A stretch of DNA of 55,942 nt from Candidatus Erabacter solicola. Lineage in GTDB: Bacteria > Vulcanimicrobiota > Vulcanimicrobiia > Vulcanimicrobiales > Vulcanimicrobiaceae. How positions within the stretch are numbered: position 1 is the stretch's first letter; every line of letters begins with the position of its first letter. Under the pieces are notes generated by a model that was given only the letters and a program-made list of their open reading frames with translations, ran no database searches and was not told where the DNA came from. Shown one piece after another: positions 7,572 to 12,106 of the stretch. The position numbers were made by a program, and so were the translations under genes. The DNA is taken from assembly GCA_003136895.1 (NCBI GenBank), contig PLDY01000165.1:1-55942 (forward strand). The letters are read 5' to 3'.

Positions 7572-9620
7572 CTAGTTTCCGACCAACTCCCGCAGCGCGT
7601 GGGCGAAGATCTTGGGCGCCTTGCCTTGGAAGAGCACGCTCTCGTTGCCGCCGATTTGTTTGCGCAGCTCGAGCAGTTCGTCGCGCAACGCGGCGGCTTT
7701 CTCGAATTCGAGGTTGGCGGCGGCCTCGTGCATCTTTTTTTCGATGTCGTTGGACATCGCCAGCGCGACCTCGCGCGGCAGGTGCTCGCCCTTGAGTTTG
7801 GCGGCTTCGCTGACCTCGCCGCTCGCGACCAAGTCGAGAATGTCGCGCACTTCTTTGCGGATCGACTTCGCTTCGATGCCGTGCTCGACGTTGTGCGCGA
7901 GCTGCCGTTCGCGACGCCGCCGCGTCTCGCCAAGCGCCTTCTCCATCGAGGCGGTGATCACATCGGCGTACATCAAGACTTTGCCTTCGACGTGGCGCGC
8001 TGCGCGGCCGATCGTTTGGATCAGTGACGTGCTGCTGCGCAGATAGCCTTCCTTATCGGCGTCGAGGATTCCGACCAGCGAAACCTCCGGCAAGTCCAAG
8101 CCTTCGCGTAACAGATTGATGCCGACCAGCACGTCGAAGACACCGCGGCGCAGATCGCGCAAGATCGCTATGCGCTCGAGCGTCTCGATCTCACTGTGCA
8201 GATAGCGGACCTTGAAACCGTTCTCAAGCAAGAAATCGGTCAGGTCTTCGGCCATCTTCTTCGTCAGCGTAGTGACCAGGACGCGCTCGCCTTTTTCGGT
8301 GCGTTGCCGAATCTCTTCCATGAGATCGTCGACTTGATTGCGCGTCGGGCGCACCTCGACTTCGGGATCGACCAGGCCCGTCGGCCGGATGATCATCTCG
8401 GCGACCTGCGTCGATTTTGAAATCTCGTAGGTCGCCGGGGTCGCGCTCACATAAATCGTCTGGTTGAGATGCGTTGAAAACTCGTCGAACGTCAGCGGCC
8501 GATTGTCCATCGCGCTCGGCAGACGGAAGCCGTGATCGACCAGCACTTGCTTACGCGAGCGATCGCCGGCGTACATGCCGTGCACTTGCGGGATTGTGAC
8601 GTGCGACTCGTCGACGAAGAGCAGCCAGTCCTTGGGAAAGAAGTCGAGCAGACAGGACGGCGTCGAGGCCGGTTCGCGGCCCGCGAGATGGCGCGAGTAG
8701 TTCTCGACGCCGTTGCAGTATCCGACCTCGCGCAGCATATCGAGATCGTAACGTGAGCGCATCTCCAGCCGCTGCGCTTCAAGCAGCTTGCCGTTGTCGC
8801 GAAAATATTTGAGCCGCTCCTCGAGTTCGATCTCGATCGCGGTCACCGCGCGGCGCAACTTCTCGTCGGGCGTGATGAAGTGCTTGGCGGGGAAGATCGT
8901 GATCTCGTCTTTCGACTCGACGTACTCGCCGGTCATCAAGTTGACGACGTTGATCGCCTCGATCTCATCGCCGAAAAACTCAATCCGGTGGACCAGCTCT
9001 TCTTCGACGCCGACGAACTCGAGGGTATCGCCCCGCACGCGGAACGTGCCGCGCACGAGGTTGAGGTCGTTGCGGCGGTACTGCATATCGATCAGGCGGC
9101 GCAGGAAGACGTCGCGATCGATCTGGTGGCCGACCTTGACCGGCAGCGACATCTCAATATAGTCCGCGGGCGAACCCAAACCGTAGATGCACGAGACGGA
9201 GGCGACGATCAGCGTGTCGCGCCGCGTCAGGAGCGACTGCGTCGCCGAGTGGCGCAGTCGCTCGATCTCGTCGTTGATCGAACTGTCCTTCTCGATATAC
9301 GTGTCGGTATGCGGGATGTACGCTTCGGGCTGGTAGTAATCGAAGTACGAGACGAAATACTCGACCGCGTTGTTCGGAAAGAAATCCCGGAACTCGGCGC
9401 AGAGTTGAGCCGCCAAGGTCTTGTTGTGGCAGAGTACGAGCGTCGGCTTTTGGACCATCTCGACGACCCGGGCCATCGCGACGGTCTTGCCGCTGCCGGT
9501 CACGCCCAAGAGCGTCTGCGCCTTGTCGCCACGGAGCACGCCGGCGGCCAGCTTGTCGGTAGCAGCGGGTTGGTCGCCGGCCAGCGCATACGGCATGACC
9601 AGCTCAAAACGATCGGACAT
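7572..9620 (-). CDS. uvrB: Excinuclease ABC subunit B
   Basis: UvrB loads with UvrA at DNA lesions, verifies damage and recruits UvrC in nucleotide excision repair. At 682 residues it has the usual length. Walker A (GVTGSGKT, about 39-46), the beta-hairpin region ([16 protein letters not shown]), helicase motifs in the second half ([32 protein letters not shown]) and a C-terminal UVR motif (residues about 635-665) are all visible. The ATG at 9620 is preferred over an in-frame GTG two codons upstream because an AGGTAGG sequence lies at a good distance from it. It is the first gene of an eight-gene run. Confidence 0.97.
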
Positions 9621-9650
9621 CGGCACCTACCTACGACACACCGGGAAGCA

Positions 9651-9742
9651 GGGCCGTTTCAGCCCGGCCGCTACGGGAGACCCTAGCTTCGGCAGGGAAA
9701 CCTGCCGGAGCAATACGCCCGTCGTCGCGAGACCTCGGTCTC
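9651..9742 (+). promoter_or_regulatory. Structured leader upstream of prs (candidate RNA element)
   Basis: The space between divergent uvrB and prs folds strongly in the prs direction. GCTTCGGCAGG (9686-9696) pairs with CCTGCCGGAGC (9701-9711) around a GAAA tetraloop; ACGGG (9673-9677) can pair with CCCGT (9718-9722) outside it, leaving an asymmetric internal loop; GAGAC (9729-9733) pairs with GTCTC (9738-9742) around CTCG, just before the AGGAG of prs; a GGCCG/CGGCC stem sits at 9652-9669. No known riboswitch class matches well. The promoter could not be placed, so transcription of the whole element is assumed. Confidence 0.45.
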
Positions 9743-9759
9743 CCCGTCAGGAGTCTGCC

Positions 9760-10797
9760 GTGATACAGAAACCCTTGCTCTTTACCGGAAACTCAAACAA
9801 AGCGCTGGCCGGCGAGGTCGCGAGCCGGATGGAATCGCGACTGGGTAGCGCGCTGGTCGACAAATTCAAGAACGACGAGTGCCGCATCGAGATTCGCGAG
9901 AACGTGCGCGGCGCCGAAGTCTTCGTCATGCAGTCGATCTGCAAAGCGCCGAACGGTCAGACCGTCAACGATTCGTTGATGGAACTGCTCCTGATGATCG
10001 ACGCGCTCAACCGCGCCTCGGCCTACCGGATCACCGCGGTCGTTCCGTATTACGGTTACGCCAAGCAAGACAAGAAGACCAAAGGCCGCGAGCCGATCTC
10101 GGCCAAGTTGGTCGCGAACTTGATCGAGAGCGCCGGCGCCAAGCGACTGGTCACCCTCGATCTGCACGCCGCGCAGATTCAAGGCTTCTTCGATATCCCC
10201 GTCGACAATCTCGAAGCGACGCCGACGCTCTGCTCGTATCTCAAGCAGCAGGGCTTCACCGGCAACAAGATCGTCGTCGTCTCGCCTGATGCCGGCGGCG
10301 TCGCGCGCGCCGAAAAGTTCGCCAAGCGTCTGAACTCGACGCTCGCCATCGTCTTCAAACGCCGCCCCGAGCCCGACGTTTCGGAAGTAACCGAGATCGT
10401 CGGCGACGTCGACGGCAAGATCGCGATCGTCGTCGACGACATGATCTCGACCGGCGGCACGCTCGCCAAAGCAGCCGAAGCGTTGATCAAGCGCGGCGCG
10501 ACGAAGGTTTACACCTGCGCGACGCACGGCATCTTCGCCGGCGACGCGGCGCGCGTACTCATCGACTCGCCGATCGAAAAAGTGATCGTCACCAACACTT
10601 TGCCCAACGTCGAAGACACGCTCGGTCCGAAGTTCAAAGTGCTTTCGATCGCGCAGATTCTGGCCGACGCCATCAAACGCATTACCGCCAACCGTTCGGT
10701 CTCCGAACTGTTCGCCAAAGAGGAAGAAGACCGGCCTCCGCCGTCACTCGGCCCGCTGCTCGACCTTCCTGAAGCATCCCTCACGCCCGCGTCATAG
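9760..10797 (+). CDS. prs: Ribose-phosphate pyrophosphokinase (PRPP synthetase)
   Basis: This enzyme makes PRPP from ribose 5-phosphate and ATP for nucleotide, NAD, His and Trp synthesis. The GTG at 9760 follows AGGAG at a 6-nt distance; an open frame continues upstream over uvrB but is not part of the protein. At 345 residues it is slightly longer than usual because of a C-terminal tail. Markers are GNSNKALAGEVA at the N terminus, VVSPDAGGVARA (pyrophosphate loop) and the PRPP-binding loop IVVDDMISTGGTL. It heads a run with rplY and pth, a common bacterial order. Confidence 0.96.
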   Translation: MIQKPLLFTGNSNKALAGEVASRMESRLGSALVDKFKNDECRIEIRENVRGAEVFVMQSICKAPNGQTVNDSLMELLLMIDALNRASAYRITAVVPYYGYAKQDKKTKGREPISAKLVANLIESAGAKRLVTLDLHAAQIQGFFDIPVDNLEATPTLCSYLKQQGFTGNKIVVVSPDAGGVARAEKFAKRLNSTLAIVFKRRPEPDVSEVTEIVGDVDGKIAIVVDDMISTGGTLAKAAEALIKRGATKVYTCATHGIFAGDAARVLIDSPIEKVIVTNTLPNVEDTLGPKFKVLSIAQILADAIKRITANRSVSELFAKEEEDRPPPSLGPLLDLPEASLTPAS

Positions 10798-10823: not shown

Positions 10824-11498
10824 ATGGCAAGCCTCAAAGACAATCTCGCCGTCGAAACGCGCTCCACGGCCGGCTCGACCGCCTCGAATTCACTGCGTAG
10901 GGCCGGCAAAGTCCCGGCGGTGCTCTTCGGCCACGGCGTCGACGCGCTGCCCGTCGCACTCGACGCGAAGGCCTTCGACGAACTGCTCCACTCCGGCGCG
11001 AAGAACAGCCTGCTGCACATCACGATCGACGGCAAGACCAAAGATACCGCGCTCCTGCGCGAGGTCCAGCGCGATCCGATTACGCGTCGCATCCTGCATG
11101 CCGATCTGCAGCGCGTCAGCGCGACCGAGACCGTCGGCGCGTCGCTGACGCTGGTGACGATCGGCGTGCCCGACGGCGTCAAGAACTCGGGCGGCGTCAT
11201 GGACGTCATCTTCCACGCGATCGATGTCGAGGGGCCGGCCAACGCGATCCCGCCCAACATCGAGGTTGACGTCACGGAACTCGGGCTGCATCAGCACGTC
11301 ACCGCCGGCGATGTCAAGCTGCCCGCCAACTTCAAACTCAAGATGGATCCTTCGACCGTCTTGATTGCGATCGAGCCTTCGCGCACCGAAGCGCAAGCGG
11401 CTGAGACCGCCGCGGCTGCCGCACCGGCACCCGTCGAAGTTCCGACCGTCGGCGAAACGACGCCGGGGGCGGACACGACCCAGGGGAGCGCGTCGTAG
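10824..11498 (+). CDS. rplY: 50S ribosomal protein bL25 (CTC/TL5 form)
   Basis: A 224-residue bL25 of the long general-stress (CTC) type, which binds 5S rRNA. The N-terminal RNA-binding part has the usual RRAGKVPAVLFGHG and a following LLHITIDGK region; the TL5-like C-terminal beta domain includes DVTELGLHQHVTAGD. It ends in an Ala/Pro/Glu-rich tail of about 35 residues, probably disordered. It lies 26 nt after prs. The stop codon TAG overlaps the apparent initiation codon of pth. Confidence 0.95.
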   Translation: MASLKDNLAVETRSTAGSTASNSLRRAGKVPAVLFGHGVDALPVALDAKAFDELLHSGAKNSLLHITIDGKTKDTALLREVQRDPITRRILHADLQRVSATETVGASLTLVTIGVPDGVKNSGGVMDVIFHAIDVEGPANAIPPNIEVDVTELGLHQHVTAGDVKLPANFKLKMDPSTVLIAIEPSRTEAQAAETAAAAAPAPVEVPTVGETTPGADTTQGSAS

Positions 11499-12106
11499 CG
11501 AGCGGGACCAAGATCGTCGCCGGGCTCGGCAATCCCGGCAAGAGCTACGAGCGCACGCGCCACAACCTCGGCTTTCGCATCGTCGAGGAAGTGGCGCGGC
11601 GGCTCGCCGTCACCACCTGGAAAAACAAAGACGGAGCGGCGCAAGCGCACGTCGCCGCGCGCGCCGTCGTCCTCGTCAAGCCGCAATCGTACATGAACGA
11701 TAGCGGCATCCCGCTCGCGCGAATCTCCCATTGGTGGAAGACGCCCGCGGGCGATCTGCTCGTCGTCGTCGACGATCTCGATCTGCCGCTCGGGCGTCTG
11801 CGTATGCGCGCCTCGGGCGGCTCGGGCGGTCACAACGGTCTCAAGTCGATCATCGAACATTTCGGCACGGAGTTTTCGCGACTGCGCGCCGGCATCGGCC
11901 GCAGCAGCGATGAGGCGATCGATCACGTGCTCTCGCCGTTTACACGCGACGAAGAAAGCGTGCTCGACGCCGTCGTCGGCATCGCGGCCGACGGTGTGCT
12001 GCTCTGGCTCGAGCGCGGCGCGGTCGACGCGATGAACTTCATCAACGCATGGCGGCCGCCGGGGGAGGACAAGACCGCGAAGAACGGGCAAGAGCAACAG
12101 ACATGA
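11495..12106 (+). CDS. pth: Peptidyl-tRNA hydrolase, with non-canonical start codon
   Basis: Pth frees tRNA from peptidyl-tRNA that falls off ribosomes. The catalytic residues are all visible: GLGNPG (Asn), TRHN (His), KPQSYMNDSG (Asn), DDLDLPLG (Asp) and GGHNGLKS (Asn). These require translation to begin near 11495-11510, but in this frame there is no ATG, GTG or TTG between the upstream stop at 11402 and a GTG at 11591, which would remove the first motifs. AGGGGAG at 11482-11488 lies 6 nt before an in-frame GTA (11495) followed by GCG. I therefore set the start there. GTA shares two bases with the rplY stop (GTAG). A sequence error is the main alternative. Confidence 0.9.
   Translation, partial: VASGTKIVAGLGNPGKSYERTRHNLGFRIVEEVARRLAVTTWKNKDGAAQAHVAARAVVLVKPQSYMNDSGIPLARISHWWKTPAGDLLVVVDDLDLPLGRLRMRASGGSGGHNGLKSIIEHFGTEFSRLRAGIGRSSDEAIDHVLSPFTRDEESVLDAVVGIAADGVLLWLERGAVDAMNFINAWRPPGEDKTAKNGQEQQT

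Follow-up and report, generated by a model that had tools for sequence, protein, structure and literature searches.

A conserved hairpin with a YNMG-type tetraloop lies before the Shine-Dalgarno sequence of prs in Candidatus Erabacter solicola and some of its relatives

The window analyzed here is a 55,942-nucleotide stretch of Candidatus Erabacter solicola DNA (contig PLDY01000165.1; contig C91 of genome G000 in our set), in which the genes around the leader under study are uvrB, running leftwards, and prs, ctc and pth, running rightwards in that order. The PRPP synthetase gene prs (9760..10797, plus strand; Pfam PF13793, PF14572 and PF00156) starts, as read directly from the sequence, at GTG 9760, and an AGGAG Shine-Dalgarno (SD) sequence at 9749..9753 on the same strand stands 6 nt 5' of this codon. 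It is followed by ctc (10824..11498, plus strand), which encodes a two-domain ribosomal protein L25 (PF01386 and PF14693), and by the peptidyl-tRNA hydrolase gene pth, whose listed open reading frame (11591..12106, plus strand) matches PF01195 over profile positions 30-183 only and whose true start probably lies further upstream. The divergent neighbor uvrB (7572..9626, minus strand; Pfam UvrB domains) has an open reading frame from GTG 9626 with an ATG two codons further in, and is read leftwards from about 9620. Among named genomes, those that best match the window's prs are two Ca. Eremiobacterota genomes, which the tree puts in Vulcanimicrobiota. Of 99 genomes from the family, 94 yielded a prs gene, and we read the upstream side of 92 prs loci and four more fragments; two of these loci, L031 and L032, probably repeat L120 and L136, being nearly the same stretch on contigs of equal length and probably from the same genomes.

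An earlier note on this DNA had described a structured leader of four stems in front of the PRPP synthetase gene, and what it observed in the sequence is borne out: the gene is prs by its Pfam domains, with its start at GTG 9760 and its AGGAG at 9749-9753, and the stems can all be read directly in the sequence. On the plus strand these are a first small stem found by folding (9652-9656 with 9665-9669), which lies upstream of the conserved block described below; a helix ACGGG/CCCGU (9673-9677 with 9718-9722); an 11-bp stem with a GAAA loop (9686-9696/9701-9711) that contains one U.G pair; and a last hairpin, GAGAC-CUCG-GUCUC (9729..9742), with a tetraloop of the YNMG type (cCUCGg) and conserved in relatives. 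The gap between this last hairpin and AGGAG (9743-9748) measures 6 nt, not the 7 nt previously given. The RNA fold of 9651-9775 reaches -58 kcal/mol (z -3.57; matched by 1 of 200 shuffles), and the 11-bp stem, which is the strongest local folding excess (40-nt folding window, z -6.16), is far from random. The four-stem fold is one among several alternative folds of 9651-9775: the minimum-energy fold retains the first stem, the 11-bp stem and the last hairpin and replaces ACGGG/CCCGU by pairing 9672-9684 with 9749-9762, which comprises the SD and the start codon, and when the folded segment is given other end points, a different fold displaces the last hairpin (pair probability 0.08 and 0.01). 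The window's plus strand contains 6 hairpins of the 9729-9742 kind, where Markov sequences average 7.1; it is conservation, and not presence, that marks this one. A search of 9560-9800 for an intrinsic terminator or attenuator, as a G+C-rich hairpin followed by a T run, found none.

Nine leaders (L001-L009), which we term type A, have the block CCCRTCGTCGCGAGACYNCGGTCTCCC in common with small changes. A covariance model built from these nine (R1) and searched in 103 genomes of the order recovers all of them together with two leaders unused in building it (G057 and G063, at 53.3 and 45.0 bits), giving 11 of the 103 genomes, and all eleven sites lie at prs, with an N gap between leader and gene in G063. 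Below them R1 yields many weak matches, the best at 26.7 bits (E 6.6e-4 for one genome, with 103 searched), which we considered as leaders at other genes and took as noise; when four of the loci (L216-L219) were checked for prs, one short and weak match appeared (L217; 44%, E 0.003). No convincing R1 match placed a type A leader at a second gene elsewhere among the 103 genomes of the order. Since uvrB lies within 400 nt upstream of prs at only 5 of 10 type A loci, the conserved block goes with prs and not with uvrB.

A second set of leaders, type A', carries a hairpin at the same place before prs on a different stem (13 of 117 genomes of the class), in the form GCUUCC-hairpin-GGAGGC (GCCUCC in L010) 5' of the SD. 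The model R2, built from these leaders (twelve picked by eye, plus L202 fetched later), returns from the 117 genomes of the class the same 13 prs leaders and four weak matches (G110, G111, G089:C170 and G064), and G110 and G111 show no prs. In the A' structure as placed by RNAalifold, the outer helix GCUUCC/GGAGGC is kept, with one pair occurring as U-G, U-A or C-G and with one U.U mismatch. Neither model clearly recognizes the leaders of the other, as R2 does not find type A leaders and R1 finds among the type A' leaders only L010, at 9.9 bits; the link between the two types thus rests on position, loop class, the protein tree and L010. In that tree the ten included A' members form one clade (100/99), adjoining a group of nine A members and G063 (95/73), with both together at 96/90 (the G063 leader, L011, carries the label B there although it is of type A). 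L010, which joins a type A-like flank (CCTCCCGTTGTCGC) to an A' kind of stem, is the deepest branch within A'. The upstream regions at the remaining prs loci look different from both types. The covariance search in relatives that the earlier note had proposed divides its proposed structure: the last hairpin is conserved before prs, and the upstream stems are mostly not kept.

The five pairs of the last hairpin are invariant across the nine type A leaders, an invariance that alone would also fit a DNA palindrome, and we weighed the possibility that GAGACYNCGGTCTC is a protein-binding operator and not an RNA hairpin. The two invariant arms, and their closeness to the promoter-like boxes described below, are what such an operator would explain; the loops are what it would not, because they obey an RNA rule, including U where DNA symmetry needs C, and because in type A' loops of that class sit on another stem, one that includes G.U pairs. 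We consequently consider a DNA operator at this position distinctly improbable. Type A loops vary only as Y-N-C-G, type A' loops are of the same class, and 21 of the 23 tabulated loops fit YNMG, the exceptions being L018 and L019 (UCUG). Twenty of the 23, representing ten distinct loops, appear in the list of 16 special tetraloops that the ViennaRNA parameters give; outside that list are L018, L019 and L020, the last of which fits YNMG but has a U-G closing pair. The table includes L024 and L169, whose hairpins were set by hand and whose stem is interrupted by a G.A mismatch at pair four; uncounted in it are L163 (32 nt only) and G063, whose loop (CCACGG) is complete ahead of its N gap and would be the 21st special loop of 24.

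Across 16 distinct hairpins, which we had cut out because they fold, pairing extends to 91.3% of cells (71.5% in shuffles) and 19 cells are changed on both sides (7.0 in shuffles), values that 0 of 500 shuffles reach in either case. Two of the five measures show no excess over shuffles, with 4 pairs carrying double changes (3.2 in shuffles) and 6 pair types (7.9 in shuffles). The A/A' tree and the intermediate form of L010 indicate that most of the double changes represent one old stem replacement. The retention of the loop class on a different stem in A' argues that the last hairpin was selected as RNA, and 9729-9742 is, on this comparison of sequences, an RNA hairpin under selection.

Upstream of the hairpin, many relatives do not keep the 11-bp stem and the ACGGG/CCCGU helix intact. 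The window's own genus is represented by one genome; the genus closest to it in prs identity (L002 and L003; 87-88%) is without the 11-bp stem, and the nine type A rows keep 55.6% and 60% of pairs in the region of that stem and pair in 80% of cells of the helix. The 75 nt 5' of the hairpin have a mean folding z of -0.23 in 10 type A leaders and -0.25 in 13 type A' leaders, where the automatic finder misplaced the hairpins of L024 and L169 and so shifted their upstream segments, and upstream pairing with the hairpin's 5' flank, with its 3' side and with the SD is not above shuffles (Fisher p 0.83, 0.19 and 0.84). When the four-stem structure is laid on a MAFFT alignment of the nine rows, 73% of cells are paired against 33-46% for slid versions, the covariation score is 0.228 against 0.106 (0 of 500 shuffles as high) and double changes exceed shuffles, all numbers that are raised because the structure was taken from one of the nine rows. 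The residual covariation signal is nonetheless not fully explained away, and the lack of covariation that the earlier note had named as evidence against its proposal is accordingly only partial for the upstream stems. Within the stretch of the 11-bp stem, four leaders (L001, L008, L201 and L203) have a folded stem (z -6.2 to -1.6), and the mean folding z there is -1.06 over 11 leaders. We read the upstream stems as coming and going over a sequence box, a reading that leaves room for a weakly conserved upstream stem.

These results bear directly on whether all four stems form a metabolite riboswitch that acts on prs translation in response to PRPP, a purine nucleotide or ppGpp. The folding excess of the window's leader, the residual covariation and a downstream gene whose product makes PRPP are in its favor; the upstream stems are not kept in relatives, no convincing match falls at a second gene in 103 genomes, and no Rfam family matches the leader, and we hold such a riboswitch to be scarcely probable. 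The comparative analysis gave no sign of a ligand, whether PRPP or a purine nucleotide, and the ligand-binding four-stem leader first proposed is not upheld, given its broken upstream stems, the lack of an upstream folding excess, of a second gene and of an Rfam match. Rfam 15 at the gathering score finds nothing in the whole window (ykkC classes included), and at E <= 10 two matches fall in 9400-9900, neither on the leader, in agreement with the earlier finding that the leader could be assigned to no known riboswitch class. The PRPP and ppGpp riboswitches (ykkC subtypes 2b and 2a) resemble the leader in that the metabolite is related to the gene, and differ, in the available portion of their description, in having a three-hairpin aptamer (PMC5912903). 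The 257 examples of the PRPP riboswitch are from Firmicutes, and the text of the paper contains neither "prs" nor "PRPP synthetase" (PMC5912903). The parts of the literature accessible to our search held no work joining Eremiobacterota and riboswitches, and those on prs leaders described no leader element.

The sequence box over which the stems vary is the second of two conserved boxes, CGGG (9674..9677, plus strand) and GGGAA (9695..9699, plus strand), the latter overlain by the 11-bp stem. The first, as (C/A)GGG, precedes the second by 17 nt in 9 of the 11 type A leaders and by 15 nt in L002 and L003, and the second is present as GAA in 11 of 11 and as GGGAA in 6 of 11. Together the type A boxes score 5.13 bits around an unconserved spacer (0 of 5000 rotations as high), and those of type A', CAGGA and approximately TGMCGCAGG at constant spacing, score 10.79 bits (0 of 3000) in the 11 of 13 leaders that remain when L010 and L019 are left out of the alignment; in both cases the anchors were picked by eye and the leaders are related to each other. 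From the GGGAA box to the hairpin, the distance in type A runs from 30 to 44 nt. Near-constant spacing between the boxes with a free distance to the hairpin is what we would expect of a promoter or operator followed by an untranslated region, and CGGG-N17-GGGAA is most likely part of the prs promoter or operator; a sigma-70 promoter scan gave no site, and the boxes match no promoter consensus in that scan. Transcription of prs would then probably start after about 9700, and the 11-bp stem would be a DNA dyad of the window's lineage, outside the conserved RNA fold. Two leaders, L008 and L201, have inverted repeats of their own over or beside a GGGAA-like box, 30-50 nt before the hairpin (ATACAGGGAACCCTGTAT; CGGGTCT...AGACCCG), which resemble the window's dyad in other letters and may be operator dyads.

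Our favored reading, which we consider moderately probable, is that 9729-9742 is a short 5'-UTR hairpin of the prs-ctc mRNA that tunes translation and the stability of the mRNA 5' end without sensing a metabolite, and that the upstream boxes are its promoter or operator. The transcript should include 9729-9742, and the conservation of the hairpin argues against a transcription start downstream of 9742. Carrying an exceptionally stable tetraloop 6 nt before the SD, the hairpin would set translation from the start region and would also set the stability of the 5' end of the mRNA. Stem-loops in the 5' UTR, of which that of ompA is the type, protect or tune bacterial mRNAs, and they share with this element a short, stable hairpin on the 5' side of the ribosome-binding site; for prs, unlike the ompA type, both the transcript start and the effect on stability are predictions. 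The likeness to YNMG/UNCG tetraloop hairpins (PMC5311481), with 21 of 23 prs loops fitting YNMG and 20 special, is to a structural motif and not to a regulatory family. In the window, a hairpin that is truly conserved is joined by a stem belonging to the window's lineage, which makes the leader resemble a riboswitch; the element appears to be a start-region hairpin of an ordinary kind rather than a new riboswitch. Comparative evidence has weakened the riboswitch candidate and left a smaller, well-supported element, a hairpin in the start region of a central metabolic gene, from a phylum that has received little study.

The suggestion that the last hairpin could control translation is supported by its position, and folding predictions indicate that the hairpin can influence the start site. 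A competing hairpin, GUC-GCGA-GAC with a GNRA loop (9724..9733, plus strand), is mutually exclusive with the conserved one, and we compared folds with either enforced; CUCC, from the hairpin's 3' arm and the next base (9740..9743, plus strand), is complementary to GGAG of the SD and could act as an anti-SD. These elements allow a bistable start-site switch, in which the YNMG form (form B) keeps GUCUCC from the SD and the GNRA form (form A) frees GUCUCC to pair with GGAG, closing the start site. Predicted folds of the short UTR agree with it: in 8 of 10 leaders no more than 3.5 kcal/mol separates the two forms, and in 9 of 10 the YNMG form leaves the SD more open. The GUC flank is present in 10 of 11 type A leaders. 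Random 3' arms raise SD opening in most trials in L001, L003, L008, L009 and L201. Against the switch, random 5' arms clearly lower SD opening (at most 2 of 60 random arms reaching wild type) in only 3 of 10 leaders (L005, L007 and L009), 13 of 60 reach the wild-type value in the window, which amounts to no clear lowering, and the anti-SD logic does not take the same form in type A'. We regard the bistable switch as unlikely. Its fuller version, a protein- or metabolite-controlled switch on the Eremiobacterota prs-ctc mRNA in which the YNMG and GNRA hairpins compete for GAGAC and thereby open or close the SD, possibly with L25 (Ctc) as an effector coupling PRPP supply to ribosome assembly, appears to us highly unlikely. 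Were either the bistable or the L25 reading true, the supply of nucleotide precursors would be tied to ribosome assembly.

Feedback by L25 was considered because ctc directly follows prs: the leader would imitate helix IV/loop E of 5S rRNA, and the protein would bind it and so exert autogenous control. We compared type A leaders with the 5S rRNA of G000 (L243) and type A' leaders with that of G086, leaving out L019 and L169. For 6 of the 10 type A leaders the best alignment with 5S rRNA falls in helix IV/loop E, the L25 site, and that of L007 has p 0.050, but the combined Fisher p is 0.07 over type A (0.41 for the reversed-5S control) and 0.98 over A'. Autoregulation by L25 exists in E. coli, and the L25 (rplY) leader of Enterobacteria likewise forms structure in the 5' UTR, ahead of the ribosome-binding site, on an mRNA encoding L25; as far as the available portions of these reports go, that control depends on a weak GAGA SD and on an L25 of one domain, whereas here the SD is AGGAG, the protein has two domains (PF01386 and PF14693) and L25 is encoded by the second gene of the mRNA (PMC10931766, PMC7247131). 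Taken together, these points make L25 feedback the least probable of the explanations we weighed.

Other branches of the family carry different sequences upstream of prs. In one, a highly conserved motif, GAACGATTCA-N5-6-GCGAAC, in which GAAC occurs twice as a direct repeat, lies between uvrB and prs, 26-35 nt 5' of the aligned prs start (L031, L119, L120, L125, L129, L132, L133, L137, L138, L149, L152, L155 and L168, of which L031 and L120 are probably from the same genome). This motif could be a promoter or the site of a regulator, with LexA a conceivable candidate because of uvrB. The start codons of uvrB and prs are only about 51-66 nt apart in many genomes (e.g., L119, L129 and L133), and several prs starts in this closely spaced branch are without a clear Shine-Dalgarno sequence; the close spacing and the missing SD suggest that prs may be leaderless there.
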